Origin: Gordonibacter massiliensis (ex Traore et al. 2017)
GTDB taxonomy: Bacteria; Actinomycetota; Coriobacteriia; Coriobacteriales; Eggerthellaceae
NCBI GenBank assembly: GCA_900170005.1
Contig: LT827128.1
Span: 3,158,168-3,222,167 of the forward strand
Reading direction: 5' to 3'
Length of the DNA stretch: 64,000 nt
Within the stretch, counting starts at the first letter, position 1. The number at the start of each line of letters is the position of its first letter. The translations under genes were made by a program, and so were the position numbers. This document shows, in pieces, positions 37,563-46,130 of this stretch. The notes under the pieces were generated by a model. That model made no database searches. It saw nothing but the letters and a program-made list of their open reading frames with translations, and was not told the DNA's origin.

Positions 37563-38375
37563 ATGAAAGCTCTCATTCCCGCGGCCGGCCTCGGCACGCG
37601 CTTCCTGCCCGCCACGAAGGCGCAGCCCAAGGAAATGCTGCTGGTGGTGGACCGTCCGGCCATCCAATACGTGGTGGAGGAGGGCCTGGCGTCGGCCGCC
37701 GACGAGGTCGTCATCATCAACAGCCGCGAGAAGAAGGCCATCGAGGACCACTTCAGCCCGAACCCGGAGCTCGTGGCAACGCTGCGCGCCCGCGGCAAGG
37801 ACAAGTACGCGGACCTCGTGGAGCAGGTGGGCGACTACAACGTGAGCTACGTGTACCAAGACGAGGCGCTGGGCCTGGGCCACGCGGTGTACTGCGCGCA
37901 CGAGAAGACGGGCAACGAGCCGTTCTACGTGCTGCTGGGCGACGTGCTGGTGCCCGACAACCAGATGCTGCCGCGCATGCAGGAGGTGTCCGACGCCCAC
38001 GGCGGGGCCAGCGTGATCGCGGTCATGCCGGTGCCGGACGACCAGGTGAGCCGCTTCGGCGTCATCGCGGGCGCGGCGGTGTCCGACGACGTGTGGAAGG
38101 TGGACGCGCTGGTGGAGAAGCCAGCGCTCGAGGACGCGCCGTCGAACCTGGCCGTGTTCGGCCGCTACCTCTTGAGCGCGCGCGTGATGGAGCTTCTGGC
38201 CGACGTCGAGCCCGGCGTGGGCGGCGAGATCCAGCTGACCGACGCCCTCGACGCCGTGCTGCGCGAGGAAGAGATGTACGCGCTGGTCATCGACCCCGCC
38301 GACGGCTTCGACACGGGCACCGTGGAAAGCTGGCTGGAAACGAACAACATCTTGTTCGCACGGAAGAACGGGTAG
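37563..38375 (+). CDS. galU: UTP-glucose-1-phosphate uridylyltransferase
   Basis: A 270-residue nucleotidyltransferase making UDP-glucose for envelope polysaccharides. Signatures: KALIPAAGLGTRFLPATKA, PKEMLLVVDRPAIQYVVEE, ALGLGHAVYCA, VLLGDVL, RFGVIAG, VEKP and GEIQLTDAL. Slightly short of the usual 290 residues but complete through the C-terminal FDTGTVESWLETN. ATG at 37563 behind GAAAGG. Monocistronic with its own leader. Confidence 0.96.
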   Translation: MKALIPAAGLGTRFLPATKAQPKEMLLVVDRPAIQYVVEEGLASAADEVVIINSREKKAIEDHFSPNPELVATLRARGKDKYADLVEQVGDYNVSYVYQDEALGLGHAVYCAHEKTGNEPFYVLLGDVLVPDNQMLPRMQEVSDAHGGASVIAVMPVPDDQVSRFGVIAGAAVSDDVWKVDALVEKPALEDAPSNLAVFGRYLLSARVMELLADVEPGVGGEIQLTDALDAVLREEEMYALVIDPADGFDTGTVESWLETNNILFARKNG

Positions 38376-38761: not shown

Positions 38762-39724
38762 CTAATCCACCACGTTCTGCGGCTTGCCTTCCACGAACGC
38801 GCCCACGTTGGCGGCTACGGTGGCCAGCAGGCGTCCGCGGGCCTCATGGGTGGCCCAGGCTATGTGGGGCGTCACCACGATGTTCTGGCCCTTCGCCTGC
38901 AGCAGGGGATTGTCGGGGTGCATGGGCTCCGCCGACACGACGTCGGCGCCGAAGCCGGCCAGCTTGCCCGAGCGCAGCGCGTCCACCACGGCTTGCTCGT
39001 CCACGAGCGCGCCGCGGGCCGTGTTCAGCAGGTACGCGCCGTCCTTCATGCAACCGATGGTCTGCGCGTTCATCATGCGGTTCGTTTCGGGCGCGGCCGG
39101 CACGTGCAGCGACACCACGTCCGCGGTGGCGAGGAGTTCGTCCAAGCTCACCTGCCGCACGCCGTCGCCTTCCAGCTCGGGCTTGGCCGAGCGGTTCTCG
39201 AACACCACCGGCATGCCGAAAGCGCGTGCGATACGGCACACGGCCTGCCCGATGCTGCCCATGCCCACGATGCCGAACGTCTTTCCCGCAAGCTCCACGA
39301 GCGGCGTCTCCCAGAATGAGAAATCCTTGGCGCGCGTCCAGTCGCCGTCCATCACCAGACGGGAGTGCTCGCCCACGTGCAGGCACAGCTCCAGCAGCAA
39401 CGCGAACGTCATCTGCGCCACGTCGGGCGTGGAGTAGGCGGGCACGTTCGACACGACCACGCCGGCGTCGCGCGCCGCATCGAGGTCCACCACGTTGTAG
39501 CCGGTGGACGTGAGCGCGATCATCTTGAGGCGCGGCGCCCAGGAAAGTGCCTCGGCATCCCACGTCACCTTGCTCGACACGGCGACGTCGGCTTCGGCCA
39601 CCCGCTCCGCCAGCTGGTCGCGCGGCGTGCGGTCGTACACGGTGACGGTGCCGTATTGCTCAAGCGCGTCCCAGCTCAGGTCGCCGGGGTTGTTCACGTA
39701 TCCTTCAAGTACGACGATGTTCAT
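38762..39724 (-). CDS. D-2-hydroxyacid dehydrogenase
   Basis: A 320-residue NAD(H)-dependent oxidoreductase of the D-isomer 2-hydroxyacid family (glycerate/phosphoglycerate type). Rossmann motif FGIVGMGSIGQ at about 146-156, catalytic Arg in LLNTARGALVDE, Glu in VVSAEPMHPDNPLL and His in VVTPHIAWAT. The length fits the NAD-dependent glycerate dehydrogenase subgroup, but the substrate cannot be set. ATG at 39724 has AGGAGG upstream. Single-gene unit facing galU. Confidence 0.92.
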   Translation of the reverse strand: MNIVVLEGYVNNPGDLSWDALEQYGTVTVYDRTPRDQLAERVAEADVAVSSKVTWDAEALSWAPRLKMIALTSTGYNVVDLDAARDAGVVVSNVPAYSTPDVAQMTFALLLELCLHVGEHSRLVMDGDWTRAKDFSFWETPLVELAGKTFGIVGMGSIGQAVCRIARAFGMPVVFENRSAKPELEGDGVRQVSLDELLATADVVSLHVPAAPETNRMMNAQTIGCMKDGAYLLNTARGALVDEQAVVDALRSGKLAGFGADVVSAEPMHPDNPLLQAKGQNIVVTPHIAWATHEARGRLLATVAANVGAFVEGKPQNVVD

Positions 39725-39907
39725 GAGGAGCCTCCTGTTGCAGTCGGTGCAGAGAAGGCGATTCTAGCATGCACCCGGCGAACGGCTCGCGCTGCGGCGC
39801 GCGGTTGCCGATCTGGGGCGGTTTCGTCGGTTTTGGAATCGGGGGTCTTCGCAAGGCGAACCAACCCGAGCCCTGTCGACTGCGACTCCACAGAGGGCGT
39901 GTCCCTT

Positions 39908-40029
39908 ATGGCAGAGATCGCATGTTATGAACGAAAAGAGCCGCAGCTAACTTTCCACGACCTGGGGTTTCTCCGACAGACGGACGCTTGGAGGTCGAAA
40001 AATCGTTCATAACGTGCGATTTCCGCCAT
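39908..40029. mobile_element. MITE-like 122-bp element with 27-bp terminal inverted repeats
   Basis: ATGGCAGAGATCGCATGTTA and TGAACGA (39908-39934) match the reverse complement of 40003-40029 with three mismatches. The 68 internal bases encode nothing. The size and terminal repeats suggest a non-autonomous transposon relic, but I see no clear target-site duplication, so a large regulatory dyad is an alternative. Confidence 0.4.
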
Positions 40030-40121
40030 CGACTGCGAACTGCGCTGCCAAAGCGGCATCGACGTGGTCTTGGGCGACTCACTCGGCATGGGGGGCGTCC
40101 GTTTCGTCGAAAGAGGCCATC

Positions 40122-40256
40122 AAAAAGGATCGGCCCGGCGAGAGGGGAGCTCGCCGGGCCACAAGGAGGGGGTGTGCGGTGTTCTTGGACACCGCTACTG
40201 CTTTGCAAGGGGTTACAAGCAGTGCAAGCTGAAAGGAGGGGAGCCTTTCGCTTGCA
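40122..40256 (-). ncRNA. C-rich small RNA, copy 1 of 3
   Basis: Minus-strand RNA of about 135 nt. The -10 TATAAT is the complement of 40263-40268. Hairpin 1 spans 40255-40224 with a CTCCCCTCC loop side. Hairpin 2 spans 40222-40198 with an ACCCCTT loop, and hairpin 3 spans 40194-40177. A CCCCCTCC linker follows. The terminator GGCCCGGCGAG-CTCCCCT-CTCGCCGGGCC (40160-40132) ends in T5 (40126-40122). C-rich loops complementary to Shine-Dalgarno sequences are typical of Gram-positive regulatory RNAs such as LhrC. No protein frame is supported. Confidence 0.7.
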
Positions 40257-40557
40257 GGACCTATTATAAAAGTTGACCTTGAAGAACATATGGGCTGCAC
40301 GTGCTCGTTTTGTCGACAAGAAGGGCTGAATATGACGATTCGGTAACGTCCCTCGTAGTCGGCCCCAAAATCTCGGACGGGCGCAAGCATCGGCCAGGTG
40401 GGCGCTGTCGAAACCGGCATCGGTTGGGATGCGTCGCATCTTGCGCTGGGGGCGGCTGCTCGCTTCGCCCTTTCGACCCGATGTTTGGCAATCGGGACCG
40501 AAGGCGATCGTCGGGCTTTTATCAATCGCGTCGGTTTGCGAAGCAAGGTTGGCTCGG

Positions 40558-40694
40558 AAAAAGGATCGGCCCGGGGAGAGGGGAGCTCCACCGGGCCACA
40601 AGGAGGGGATGATGGCGCCTATTGGGCGCCACTTCTGCTTTTAAGGGGTTAAAGCAGATGCAAACTGAAAAGGAGGGGAGCCTTTCGTTTGCTG
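40558..40694 (-). ncRNA. C-rich small RNA, copy 2 of 3
   Basis: Paralogue of the RNA at 40122-40256, about 137 nt. -10 TATACT (complement of 40701-40706). Same order: a hairpin with CTCCCCTCC, a hairpin with ACCCCTT, and a variable third hairpin (GGCGCCCAATAGGCGCC, different from copies 1 and 3 but still pairing). Then an ATCCCCTCC linker and the GGCCCGG...CCGGGCC terminator with T5. Compensatory change in hairpin 3 supports a conserved RNA structure. Confidence 0.7.
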
Positions 40695-41105
40695 TCTCAC
40701 AGTATAAAAGTTGACCTTGAAAAACATATGACGGAGGAGTGGCCGTTTTGTGAATTAGGGGGCGCGAATGTAACAATTATATGAACAACCCCGCCCCATT
40801 CATCGCCCTCCCGTCGACTTCGGGCAACCGGGGTATGAAACCGATGGGCGCGAAGCCGCTCCCACGGGTGCGTTCCACGCCGTCGTTCCCATGTCGAGGG
40901 AGATTCGCGCGCGCGGAACGCGCGGCACCACGACGATGTCCGGGAACGATAAAGCACGGCAAGCAAGTCGCTCGTGGGTTCGGCGGTCAGATGCCCCTCG
41001 TGTTAGCGGTTCGTATCAAATAGATTGCTAAACAACTCAGAGACCGACCTTTGGCCTATAACCCCAATCTGGGGGAGGGGAGTTAAGGGACACGGTTGAT
41101 GCTGG

Positions 41106-41241
41106 AAAAAAGATCGGCCCGGGGAGAGGGGAGCTCCACCGGGCCACAAGGAGGGGATGATGCGGTGCTCTTGGACACCGCTACTGCTTTGTAAGGGGTA
41201 CAAGCAGTGCAAACTAAAAGGAGGGGAGCCTTTCGCTTGCA
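41106..41241 (-). ncRNA. C-rich small RNA, copy 3 of 3
   Basis: Third paralogue, about 136 nt. -10 TATAAT (complement of 41248-41253), terminator with T6 (41111-41106). The body is nearly identical to copy 1 in hairpins 1-3 and to copy 2 in the terminator stem. All three copies share CATA(T/C)GTT(T/C)TTCAA just upstream, in the -35 region (41264-41277 here), although the spacer bases differ in this copy. This suggests a common activator or sigma-factor site. Confidence 0.7.
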
Positions 41242-41619
41242 GGGCCCATTATAGGGGCTCGGGTTGAAAAACGTATGGCGCAAGCGTGTTCGTCTTGTGC
41301 AGCGGCCGTGCATGGTCGGTGAATTGCACTCCCGCCCGGCAAGCCTGCCGCTCGCGGACGTACGGCCGCCGCTCGCGTGCCGGGGAAATTTCAGCTCGTG
41401 CGCGGATCCTTCGACTTCGGCGTTTCGATCGCTTGGCACCAAACGCGATCCGGCGCTTTTCGCCCTGCGGGCGGTCGACCGCCCCTCAAGCCGTCGAACG
41501 GCCTGGGCGCGAGAATGCGAAGCGGGTCTTCTGTCGAAAGGTGCCGGATTTCGCTCCTTCGACCGTGCGCCGTGCGACGTTTTCGGTATCATGGACGGTG
41601 CCGAAGGAAAGGATCCCTC

Positions 41620-42606
41620 ATGTCCGACATAGCGCTGCGCTTTCATAAAGACATGCTCGTGCTGTCCGCCCCCATCGCCGCCGTGCTCGCGCGCCAAGGC
41701 GTCGACGTGACGCGCGATCTGGAGTACCTGAACCTCATCGAGCCCGAGGCCGTGCGCGACGCGCTGCGCCTCGAATCCATCGCAGGCGCCCAGTGCATCG
41801 TCGCCAACACGGAGGGCATCGCCCCCGCGCGGCTGGCGCACCACGGCATGGAGGATCGTGCGGAAGAGCTGGCCCGCGCCGCGCTTGCGGCCGTGCAGGG
41901 GCTCAGGCCCCAGCACGTGCTGGCCGAGGTTGGTCCGTGCGGGCTGCCCCTCGACGGCTCCAGCGCGGCGTCGCTCAACGAGAACCGCAGCCAGTACGCC
42001 CGCGCCGTTCGCGTGTTCGAAGGTGGGACGTTCGACGCCTTCCTGTTCGGTGGGTTCGCGAACCCCGTCGACCTCAAATGCGCGCTCATGGGTGCGCGTC
42101 AGGCGAGCGATCGGCCCGTGTTCGCGTCGGTCGACGTGGACGGCGACGGCCTCATGCCCGATGGGCGCACGACCATCGAAGAGGCGGCGTCGCTCATGGG
42201 CGAGTTCGGCGCCTCCGTGGCGGGCTTCTCCTCGGGCGCTCCGGTCGAGCAGGTTGCGGCGCTGGTCGAGCGCGTTTGCGGTACGGTCGATCTGCCCGTG
42301 CTCGTGCAGCTTCGCATTGCCGAGCGCGCTCCGAGGCAGGGTGCTCCCACGCCGGAGAACCCCTACTACTGCCCCGACGTCATGGTGGAGGCCGCCGCGC
42401 GTCTGCGTGCGGCGGGCGCGCAGTTCCTGCGAGCGGCGGGCGACGCCACGCCGGCCTACACCGGTGCGCTGGCGGCGGCCACCGACGGCTTCGACGTCGT
42501 CGCGCCTCGCGACGCCCGGCCGGCCGAGGAAGACGAGCCCGACTTCGCCGAGCTGTTGGCCGCCGCGCGCAGCAAATCGTTGTTCTCGTCGCGCGAGGAA
42601 GGATAG
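41620..42606 (+). CDS. homocysteine S-methyltransferase-like TIM-barrel protein
   Basis: A 328-residue cytoplasmic protein with the N-terminal pattern of the homocysteine S-methyltransferase (MetH N-terminal) family. It has LVLSAPIAAVLARQGVD at the start, GAQCIVANTEGIAPARLAHHG near 52, and LAEVGPCGLPLDGSSAASL near 107. The C-terminal GGCC zinc motif required for thiolate activation is not visible; the expected region reads FDVVAPRDARPAEEDEPDF. It may therefore be catalytically altered or act on a different substrate. ATG at 41620 behind AAGGAAAGGA. The following 90-residue gene is 8 nt away. Confidence 0.65.
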   Translation: MSDIALRFHKDMLVLSAPIAAVLARQGVDVTRDLEYLNLIEPEAVRDALRLESIAGAQCIVANTEGIAPARLAHHGMEDRAEELARAALAAVQGLRPQHVLAEVGPCGLPLDGSSAASLNENRSQYARAVRVFEGGTFDAFLFGGFANPVDLKCALMGARQASDRPVFASVDVDGDGLMPDGRTTIEEAASLMGEFGASVAGFSSGAPVEQVAALVERVCGTVDLPVLVQLRIAERAPRQGAPTPENPYYCPDVMVEAAARLRAAGAQFLRAAGDATPAYTGALAAATDGFDVVAPRDARPAEEDEPDFAELLAAARSKSLFSSREEG

Positions 42607-43159: not shown

Positions 43160-45481
43160 ATGGTCACCACCATCATCAAGCGCGACGGGCGCACGGCGGA
43201 ATTCAACGAGGGCAAGATCGCCGAGGCGGTGGAGCGGGCGTTCCAGGCGTGCGGCGCCATGCAGGACCGCGCGGCTGCCGAGAGCATCGCGCAGCAGGTG
43301 GTGGAGAAGCTGGAGAGCGGCGCCATCGAGGGCGTGCCCACGGTCGAGGGCGTGCAGGACCTGGTGGAGGAGACGCTCATCGAGTCCGGTTTCGTGCAGA
43401 CGGCCAAAGCCTACATCCTCTACCGCGCCGAGCGCAGCCGCTCGCGCGACGTGAACAGCCGCCTCATGCAAACGCTCAAGGACATCACGTTCTCGAAGGC
43501 GTCCGACTCCGACATGAAGCGCGAGAACGCCAACATCGACGCCGACACCGCCATGGGCACCATGCTCAAGTACGGCTCGGAGTCGGCCAAGCAGTTCTAC
43601 GAGATGTGCGTCATCGAGCCGAAGTTCGCCCGCGCGCACCGCGAGGGCGACATCCACATCCACGACATGGACTTCTACACGCTCACCACCACGTGCTGCC
43701 AGATCGAGCTGAAGAAGCTGTTCAAGGGCGGCTTCTCCACGGGCCACGGCGTGCTGCGCGAGCCCAACGACATCGCCAGCTACGCGGCGCTCGCCTGCAT
43801 CGCCATCCAGAGCAACCAGAACGACCAGCACGGCGGGCAGGCCATCTGCGACTTCGACTACGGTCTGGCCGAGGGCGTGAAGAAGACGTACCGCCGCCTG
43901 TACAAGAAGCACCTGGCCGAGGCGCTCGACCTGCTCACCGACATCGAAGACGGCCGCGCCTTCGCGCAGGACGTCCTCGCGCGCGTCGAGGAGCGCACCG
44001 GCGTGTGGGCCTCGCTCGCCCTGGACGAGGGTTTCGGCTCCGCCCTGCGCGCCGAGCTGTCCGAGGCGGGCGTCGAGGAGGCCGTGATCGACCGCGCGCT
44101 GGCCTACACCGCCAAGAACGCCACCGCCGACACCGACCGCACGACGTTCCAGGGCATGGAGGCGCTCGTCCACAACCTGAACACCATGCACTCGCGCGCC
44201 GGCGCGCAAACGCCGTTCAGCTCCATCAACTACGGCATGGACACGTCCCCCGAGGGCCGCATGGTGGTGAAGAACATGCTGCTGGCCACCGAGGAGGGCC
44301 TCGGCTCCGGCGAGACGCCCATCTTCCCCGTGCAGATCTTCCGCGTGAAGGAGGGCGTGAACTACAACCCCGGCGACCCGAACTACGACCTGTTCAAACT
44401 GGCCATGCACTGCTCGGCGAAGCGCCTGTTCCCCAACTTCAGCTTCATCGACGCGCCGTTCAACGCGCAGTACTACAAGGGCACGCCCGAGACGGAGATC
44501 GCCTACATGGGCTGCCGCACGCGCGTCATGGGCAACGTGTACGATCCCGACCGCGAGATCGCGCCCGGCCGCGGCAACCTGTCGTTCACGTCCATCAACC
44601 TGCCGCGATTGGCCATCCGCTCGAAGGGCGACCTCGACCTGTTCTTCGACCTGCTGGACGCGAAGCTGGCGCTTACGGTGGGGCAGCTGGACGAGCGCTT
44701 CGAGATCCAGGCACGCAAGAAGGTGTACAACGCGCCGTTCCTCATGGGGCAGGGCGTGTGGATCGACTCCGAGAAGCTGGCGCCCGGCGACGAGCAGCGC
44801 GAGGTGCTGAAGCACGGCACGCTGTCCGTGGGCTTCATAGGCTTGGCCGAGACGCTGGTGGCGCTCACGGGCAAGCACCACGGCGAGTCGCAGGCGTCGC
44901 AGAACCTGGGGCTCGAGATCATCGGCCACATGCGCGGCTACCTGGACAAGCTCTCGCAGGAGCGGGGGTTGAACTACGGCCTCATCGCCACGCCGGCGGA
45001 GGGCCTGTCGGGTCGCTTCGTGCGCATGGACCGCGAGCGCTACGGCTCCATCCCCGGCATCACCGACCGCGACTACTACACGAACGGCTTCCACGTGCCG
45101 GTGTACTACGACATCAGCGCGTTCGACAAGATCGAGATCGAGGCGCCGTACCACGCGCTCACGAACGCGGGCCACATCTCCTACGTCGAGCTCGACGGCG
45201 ATCCCACGGGCAACCTCGAGGCGTTCGAGGCCGTCATCCGCCACATGAAGGAGAGCGGCATCGGCTACGGCTCGGTGAACCACCCGGTGGACCGCGACCC
45301 GGTGTGCGGCTACAACGGCATCATCGGCGACGTGTGCCCCAAGTGCGGCCGCACGGAGGAGGAGCACGGCATGGCCTTCGAGCGCATCCGCCGCATCACC
45401 GGCTACCTGGTGGGCACCCTCGACCGCTTCAACGACGCCAAGCGCGCCGAAGAGGCCGACCGGGTCAAGCACCAGATGTAG
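43160..45481 (+). CDS. nrdD: anaerobic ribonucleoside-triphosphate reductase
   Basis: A 773-residue class III ribonucleotide reductase using a glycyl radical to make dNTPs without oxygen. The N-terminal ATP-cone (about 1-95: TTIIKRDGRTAEFNEGKIAE) is the allosteric activity site. The catalytic barrel includes HIHDMDFY and CQIELKKLF. The glycyl radical loop is RRITGYLVG near the end. The C-terminal zinc site shows CGY and CPKCG, but the first Cys of the usual CxxCG pair is replaced (VDRDPVCGY), leaving three Cys. The activase NrdG follows. ATG at 43160 after a long leader. Confidence 0.96.
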   Translation: MVTTIIKRDGRTAEFNEGKIAEAVERAFQACGAMQDRAAAESIAQQVVEKLESGAIEGVPTVEGVQDLVEETLIESGFVQTAKAYILYRAERSRSRDVNSRLMQTLKDITFSKASDSDMKRENANIDADTAMGTMLKYGSESAKQFYEMCVIEPKFARAHREGDIHIHDMDFYTLTTTCCQIELKKLFKGGFSTGHGVLREPNDIASYAALACIAIQSNQNDQHGGQAICDFDYGLAEGVKKTYRRLYKKHLAEALDLLTDIEDGRAFAQDVLARVEERTGVWASLALDEGFGSALRAELSEAGVEEAVIDRALAYTAKNATADTDRTTFQGMEALVHNLNTMHSRAGAQTPFSSINYGMDTSPEGRMVVKNMLLATEEGLGSGETPIFPVQIFRVKEGVNYNPGDPNYDLFKLAMHCSAKRLFPNFSFIDAPFNAQYYKGTPETEIAYMGCRTRVMGNVYDPDREIAPGRGNLSFTSINLPRLAIRSKGDLDLFFDLLDAKLALTVGQLDERFEIQARKKVYNAPFLMGQGVWIDSEKLAPGDEQREVLKHGTLSVGFIGLAETLVALTGKHHGESQASQNLGLEIIGHMRGYLDKLSQERGLNYGLIATPAEGLSGRFVRMDRERYGSIPGITDRDYYTNGFHVPVYYDISAFDKIEIEAPYHALTNAGHISYVELDGDPTGNLEAFEAVIRHMKESGIGYGSVNHPVDRDPVCGYNGIIGDVCPKCGRTEEEHGMAFERIRRITGYLVGTLDRFNDAKRAEEADRVKHQM

Positions 45482-45491
45482 CAGGTTGAAC

Positions 45492-46130
45492 GTGACCCTG
45501 CCCGACACCATCCGCTTGTACGGTACGGCTCCGGACTCCATCGTCGATGGGCCGGGGCTGCGCTTCGCCGTGTTCGTGCAGGGGTGCACGCACGGCTGTC
45601 CCGGCTGCCACAATCCCGACAGCCAGCCGGCGTGCGGCGGCGAGGTGCGGGCGCTCGACGACCTCGTGGCCGAGATCGCGGCCAACGGCCTCGTGCAGGG
45701 CGTGACCGTCTCGGGCGGCGAGCCCTTCGAGCAGGCCGCCGCCTGCGCCGAGTTGGCGCGTCGCGTGCGCGGGCTCGGGCTGAACGTGTGGACGTACACG
45801 GGCTACCGCTACGAGGACCTGGCCGCGCTCGCAAACCGCACGGCCGACGCCTGCGCCTCCGACGCAGCGTGCGATGCTGCGCACGACGTAACCGCAGCTT
45901 CCACCCGCCTCTCGCTGCCCTCGGTGGACCCGGCCGGAGCGGCGGCCCTGCTCGCCGCCACCGACGTGCTGGTGGACGGCCCCTTCGTGCAGGCGCTCCA
46001 CTCCTTCGAGCTGGCGTGGCGCGGCTCGTCCAACCAACGGTTGATTGACGTTCCCGCGACCCGCGCCACCGGGCGCGTCGTTTTATGGGACACTCACGAG
46101 GATTTCCCCGAAAAACCGGCTTCTTGGTAA
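45492..46130 (+). CDS. nrdG: anaerobic ribonucleotide reductase activating protein
   Basis: A 212-residue radical SAM activase that generates the glycyl radical on NrdD. The cluster motif is CTHGCPGC (CxxxCxxC), followed by VSGGEPF and VWTYTGYRYED. An insertion of about 30 residues rich in Ala/Asp with two Cys (ACASDAACDAAHD) splits the middle, longer than in typical NrdG of about 155-175 residues. GTG at 45492 follows CAGG at the nrdD stop; TTG at 45486 is possible. Overlapping operon arrangement with nrdD. Confidence 0.92.
   Translation: MTLPDTIRLYGTAPDSIVDGPGLRFAVFVQGCTHGCPGCHNPDSQPACGGEVRALDDLVAEIAANGLVQGVTVSGGEPFEQAAACAELARRVRGLGLNVWTYTGYRYEDLAALANRTADACASDAACDAAHDVTAASTRLSLPSVDPAGAAALLAATDVLVDGPFVQALHSFELAWRGSSNQRLIDVPATRATGRVVLWDTHEDFPEKPASW

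Follow-up and report, generated by a model that had tools for sequence, protein, structure and literature searches.

A family of multicopy C-rich small RNAs in Eggerthellaceae with a predicted anti-Shine-Dalgarno role

INTRODUCTION

The closed 3.95-Mb genome of Gordonibacter massiliensis carries, on the minus strand, an array of three direct repeats, each about 140 bp long, which are 436 and 548 bp apart. The array is flanked by the gene for a 2-hydroxyacid dehydrogenase (38762-39724, minus strand) on one side and a homocysteine S-methyltransferase-like gene on the other. What do these repeats encode, what would switch them on, and on which genes would their products act? The locus was analyzed within a window, that is, the whole stretch of 64,000 nucleotides studied here. 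An earlier note on this DNA had read the units as paralogous small RNAs (sRNAs) that expose C-rich motifs complementary to Shine-Dalgarno (SD) sequences.

RESULTS

In minus-strand order, each unit shows a −10 box (TATAAT or TATACT), hairpins 1 to 3, an unpaired linker, a terminator hairpin (GGCCCGG/CCGGGCC), and a T-rich tail. The loop of hairpin 1 reads CUCCCCU, the stem of hairpin 2 is formed by CUGCUU and AAGCAG, and the unpaired linker of copies 2 and 3 is CAUCAUCCCCUCCUUGU. Relative to shuffled sequences, the minus strands of the three copies fold with z-scores of −7.8, −6.6, and −5.5, versus 1.6 to 4.0 standard deviations below shuffles for the plus strand. The repeats, the boxes, and these scores confirm the earlier description of three minus-strand units, each with a −10 box, three hairpins, and a terminator. 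The features of the locus are as follows (positions in the window).

37563-38375, plus: galU, conserved neighbor on the opposite side of the array
40120-40258, minus: sRNA copy 1, predicted start at about 40256, as judged by the position of its −10 box
40263-40268, minus: −10 box of copy 1, TATAAT
40279-40316, minus: CA repeat box of copy 1, phased at 11 bp and ending 10 nt before the −10 box
40163-40171, minus: linker anti-SD motif CCCCUCCUU of copy 1
40131-40161, minus: terminator hairpin of copy 1, followed by a T-rich tail (40122-40130)
40556-40696, minus: sRNA copy 2, start at about 40694, with hairpin 3 differing in sequence
40701-40706, minus: −10 box of copy 2, TATACT
40717-40754, minus: CA repeat box of copy 2, likewise phased
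40600-40608, minus: linker anti-SD motif CCCCUCCUU of copy 2
40568-40597, minus: terminator hairpin of copy 2
41104-41243, minus: sRNA copy 3, start at about 41241, adjoining the divergent methyltransferase gene
41248-41253, minus: −10 box of copy 3, TATAAT
41264-41301, minus: CA repeat box of copy 3, likewise phased
41148-41156, minus: linker anti-SD motif CCCCUCCUU of copy 3
41116-41145, minus: terminator hairpin of copy 3
41620-42606, plus: homocysteine S-methyltransferase-like gene, divergent conserved neighbor

A coding role was rejected, since no reading frame is conserved among the homologues and the longest complete frame has 24 codons (mostly 0 to 16). By computation, the three units are predicted to encode non-coding RNAs. 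That they are instead a transposon-derived or dispersed repeat with a function on the plus strand is extremely improbable. Such an origin could be read into three near-identical tandem units whose plus strand shows a ribosome-site-like AAGGAGGGGATGATG, yet BLAST with copy 3 as the query found exactly three copies genome-wide, all in the array (E-values for the other two, 6e-53 and 5e-43), and other genera share its placement, with galU on one side and the methyltransferase gene on the other. Moreover, the promoter, the terminator, and the better folding all belong to the minus strand, and the plus-strand frames following the AAGGAGGGGATGATG-associated ATG have 10 and 35 codons. Copy number, synteny, and strand signals thus exclude the plus-strand transposon parts that the earlier note had named as its counter-explanation. 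A 27-nt inverted repeat directly downstream of copy 1 (39908-40029; arms 89% complementary, 68 nt apart) is single-copy in the genome and hence not a dispersed element. Anaerobic ribonucleotide reductase-like genes (nrdD and nrdG) lie at 43160-46130, and the same neighborhood is conserved in many genera.

Iterated profile search and alignment gathered 37 homologues, from which a covariance model was built. With this model, the RNA was found in 104 of 140 Eggerthellaceae genomes, representing 38 of 48 genera, usually in one to four copies each; named carriers include Eggerthella sinensis, Paraeggerthella hongkongensis, Enteroscipio rubneri, Rubneribacter badeniensis, and Adlercreutzia sp. ZJ141. 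Under strict filters, about 222 Coriobacteriia genomes outside the family gave zero matches, and in a sample of 300 genomes of the class all 63 matches fell within Eggerthellaceae. A short exact pattern also matched a few unrelated records, in keeping with chance expectation.

The homologues show that the structure is maintained while the sequence changes: 12 of the 18 consensus pairs are altered on both sides, and helices 1 and 3 are rich in compensatory changes. Homologues with compensatory changes, whose absence would have spoken against the earlier note, thus exist, and its observation that hairpin 3 of copy 2 still pairs despite a different sequence holds. Pairing was retained in 96.6% of cells, versus 89% in shuffles and 30 to 42% when the alignment was slid, the slide control being flattering because the consensus structure had itself guided part of the alignment. 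Neither the shuffle control, in which 0 of 500 shuffles reached any of five covariation measures, nor the pairs of helix 3, which vary strongly, depend on the structure-fitted alignment alone. Distant members keep the four-hairpin fold, and the terminator and −10 box are present in nearly all homologues, with few exceptions.

Up to four C-rich sites are found per RNA, namely, in the hairpin-1 loop, the hairpin-2 loop, the linker, and the terminator loop. The linker motif CCCCUCCUU is identical in 37/37 homologues and 98% unpaired, with CAU beside it in 29, whereas the hairpin-2 loop site (ACCCC/CCCCUU) is partly conserved, being kept in 24/37 only. Of the C-rich motifs described earlier as exposed in every copy, the linker is the invariant one among the 37 homologues.

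Since the array occupies the same site relative to galU and the methyltransferase gene in different genera, the locus is inherited vertically. In the tree, one 20-row clade (92/95 support) holds copy 2 of this genome together with copies from many genera, and the methyltransferase-adjacent copy falls outside this clade in the multicopy genomes examined. The duplication thus probably predates the genera, although many forks of the tree are weak. In one genus (g6), a second copy lies far from the first on the same contig (G009:C1:2173200-2173470); its fold is kept, and it seemingly has no phased CA box.

A cmscan search of the whole window against all 4227 Rfam families returned zero families at the gathering threshold, and a search of the open-access journal literature on Eggerthella, Gordonibacter, and Coriobacteriia gave nothing relevant on sRNAs. 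Both results agree with the earlier statement that no such family was known from Coriobacteriia. Taken together, it is strongly supported that the array RNAs constitute a real, multicopy, C-rich, minus-strand sRNA family that was previously undescribed.

The promoters carry an element missing from the earlier note, a CA repeat box with a period of 11 bp that ends 10 nt before the −10 box. With positions counted back from base 1 of the −10 hexamer, C stands at −35, −24, and −13 in all 37 promoters without gaps, and CA occupies −46, −35, −24, and −13 together in 29 of the 37. Zero promoters showed four CA steps at register shifts of 1 to 5 bp or at periods of 8 to 10 or 12 to 14. No −35 consensus and no sigma-70-like promoter was found for the sRNAs. 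This is the OmpR/PhoB-type layout, in which 11-bp direct repeats at a fixed distance from the −10 box replace the −35 box. PhoB boxes have repeats 11 bp apart with a similar placing before the −10 box. CiaR promoters likewise contain repeats at an 11-bp period ending 10 nt before it (PMC3091779). We infer that the sRNA promoters are controlled by a response regulator of the predicted OmpR/PhoB class.

The genome encodes 20 OmpR-type candidate regulators, and listing them singled out none. A wider regulon of the regulator is not visible, since the full CA box occurs in this genome solely before the three sRNAs. Control by phosphate was rejected: the box resembles a Pho box, yet no PhoU domain match was found in the genome, and this, along with the restriction of the box to the array, leaves Pho control unsupported. 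Further upstream of the CA box, the copies differ (TTGTTAC types versus GTTCACCGA types), so the sibling sRNAs may respond differently. By eye, the 11-bp CA phasing extends two more repeats upstream in the copy 3 promoter and its orthologues (41264-41330). Copy-2 types carry TTGTTAC where copy-3 types continue the phasing, which constitutes a class-specific promoter difference.

Genome-wide target prediction was limited to pattern searches. The linker complement AAGGAGGGG was found 3 to 9 nt before an ATG at 17 genome sites, whereas its reversal gave 2 such sites. Of the 17, two belong to the plus strand of the sRNA units themselves, and some others do not lead to any plausible gene. Among the candidates are a YfcC-type antiporter (score under the model's curated cut-off), directly behind a carbamate-kinase-like gene named by eye, and a NapA-like molybdoenzyme gene, along with TorD-like and lactate-permease-like genes recognized by eye only. 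The AAGGAGGGG pattern again precedes reductases with TAT-like signals and membrane subunits in other genera, also as judged by eye. The prediction of ribosome-site pairing suggested in the earlier note thus yields candidate genes by pattern but does not discriminate by duplex energy: the energies do not place the antiporter leader above other leaders, of which about 11 to 14% in the background set pair as strongly with the linker or with the site in hairpin 1. The "global translational repressor" of that note overreaches, since AAGGAGGGG precedes about a dozen genes only, and a restricted regulon comprising the arginine antiporter and respiratory reductases fits better than global repression.

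AGGAGGGG, which is complementary to the sRNA and rare as a ribosome-binding site, was found before the arginine-operon antiporter gene in 34 of the 55 leaders that belong to sRNA-bearing genomes versus 0 of the 5 that belong to sRNA-less ones, related genomes being counted individually. With the same way of counting, GGAGGG stands before the NapA-like gene in 26/56 sRNA-bearing versus 0/14 sRNA-less cases, and the full GGAGGGG does so in 8/56 versus 0/14. In a crude background sample of 155 genes, the frequency of GGAGGG was 5.8%, and the single GGAGGGG belonged to a spurious gene call on the strand opposite an sRNA. In several genera that carry the sRNA, the antiporter gene is not preceded by GGAGGGG. 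The fourth G of this site is unpaired with the 16S tail (the 16S 3′ end), and its conservation is therefore better explained by the sRNA.

In G. massiliensis itself, the antiporter gene directly follows the carbamate-kinase-like gene, the region lying near 1491500-1494300. The antiporter leader contains CTCGATCCTC-N-AAGGAGGGG, which is common to several genera and could itself fold over the ribosome site. Antiporter leaders of another genus (g24) have as ribosome site, in place of AAGGAGGGG, another G-rich run, AAAGGGGGAGG, which might still pair with the sRNA loops.

Two alternatives have to be weighed against these data. In the first, the RNA and its pairing sites are the same, but genes other than the antiporter gene and napA are the main targets, or pairing leads to activation or mRNA stabilization; GGAGGGG before these genes would then reflect a strong need for translation together with shared ancestry. 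In E. lenta, the genes of the arginine pathway rank with the most highly expressed ones (PMC10234575), and such expression could favor strong ribosome sites. In addition, the duplex energy ranking is unspecific and the compared genomes are related. Nevertheless, GGAGGGG is missing before the antiporter and NapA-like genes in the sRNA-less genomes examined, and strength alone is insufficient to account for a G that the 16S tail leaves unpaired. We consider this alternative unlikely. Even less probable is the second, in which the C-rich loops and linker titrate a C/U-rich-binding protein, comparable to Csr-type sRNAs and CsrA, with mRNA pairing being secondary. Several near-identical loop motifs per RNA and multiple copies per genome would suit a protein sponge, but the linker complements the SD sequence over nine letters, is usually preceded by CAU, and has its complement conserved before specific genes. 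At the sequence level, the predicted anti-SD mode is well supported, and the sRNAs probably block ribosome-binding sites of energy-metabolism genes, e.g., that of the arginine transporter.

DISCUSSION

The family is a new one belonging to a known kind of regulator. LhrC1-5 of Listeria monocytogenes is multicopy and has C/U-rich UCCC sites in a loop, a single-stranded stretch, and the terminator loop; the single-stranded stretch blocks the SD sequence, and all copies depend on the two-component system LisRK (PMC4132741). The array RNAs are likewise multicopy, with C-rich sites in a loop, the linker, and the terminator loop and with a response-regulator-like promoter box, but they occur in a different phylum and have an extra variable hairpin 3. 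The LhrC model of Rfam matched neither the window at the gathering threshold nor 39900-41400 at an E-value of ≤5 (cmscan), so that the comparison drawn in the earlier note is an apt analogy and does not extend to membership.

The csRNAs of Streptococcus, sibling RNAs of the CiaRH regulon, have TTTAAG-N5-TTTAAG repeats 10 nt before the −10 box and an unpaired stretch that combines anti-SD with anti-start CAU (PMC3091779). Array promoters share the 11-bp period and the 10-nt gap, and the array linker is unpaired in 37/37 homologues, with CAU beside the anti-SD motif in 29/37. In contrast, the array repeat is NNCA..., present four times rather than twice, and the TTTAAG motif was not found; the RNA is GC-rich with more hairpins, and no sequence homology was detected. 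Mycobacterial 6C RNA (B11) acts through C-rich loops on G-rich leader sites without a known chaperone (PMC10470900). It is also an sRNA of Actinomycetota with C-rich targeting, yet it carries two C6 loops and does not occur in multiple copies, and its Rfam covariance model gave no match even at an E-value of ≤5 over 39900-41400. The best sRNA family in this relaxed Rfam scan (E-value of ≤5 over 39900-41400) was ar14 of Alphaproteobacteria (RF02344), whose hairpin and terminator loops carry CCUCCUCCC-type anti-SD motifs. With 24.1 bits, the match fell well short of the gathering score (58.8), and membership was rejected, the resemblance stemming from the C-rich loops. Most likely, then, the array sRNAs resemble LhrC and the csRNAs functionally and are members of neither, nor of 6C or ar14.

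Computation establishes the RNA family with its structure and synteny, the phasing of its promoters, and the site before the antiporter gene. The reading that we favor, with a probability of roughly two in three, is that these are Eggerthellaceae-specific trans-acting sRNAs, switched by an OmpR/PhoB-type regulator, that repress translation through their anti-SD linker, with the arginine antiporter as the favored target. From sequence comparison, we infer their transcription, regulator, pairing, and physiological role along the following lines. A phosphorylated OmpR/PhoB-type regulator would bind the 11-bp-phased CA repeats, which would take the role of the −35 box, and switch the copies on. 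Each unit would be transcribed independently and act in trans. The linker CCCCUCCUU, usually preceded by CAU, would pair with AAGGAGGGG-type SD sequences and keep ribosomes off. The favored target would be the arginine/ornithine-type antiporter gene beside carbamate kinase, and respiratory molybdoenzyme genes such as napA would be further candidates, so that the sRNAs would lower translation of arginine-energy and anaerobic-respiration genes. Repression rather than activation is an assumption made here by analogy. More tentatively, the siblings could form, throughout the lineage, the riboregulatory arm of a single two-component system and tune the arginine-deiminase energy pathway versus anaerobic respiration through competition for GGAGGGG ribosome sites that coevolve with them, with classes that predate the genera; in that event, the RNA classes might possess partly different promoters.

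These results provide a drug-metabolizing gut lineage with a widespread regulatory RNA, for which a covariance model and a predicted regulator class are at hand, and the concrete first candidate target sits in the main ATP-yielding pathway of the lineage. Genetic tools are described for E. lenta (PMC9734109), which opens the family to experimental testing. If confirmed, it would represent a further independent emergence, in Actinomycetota, of multicopy anti-SD RNAs tied to a two-component system.
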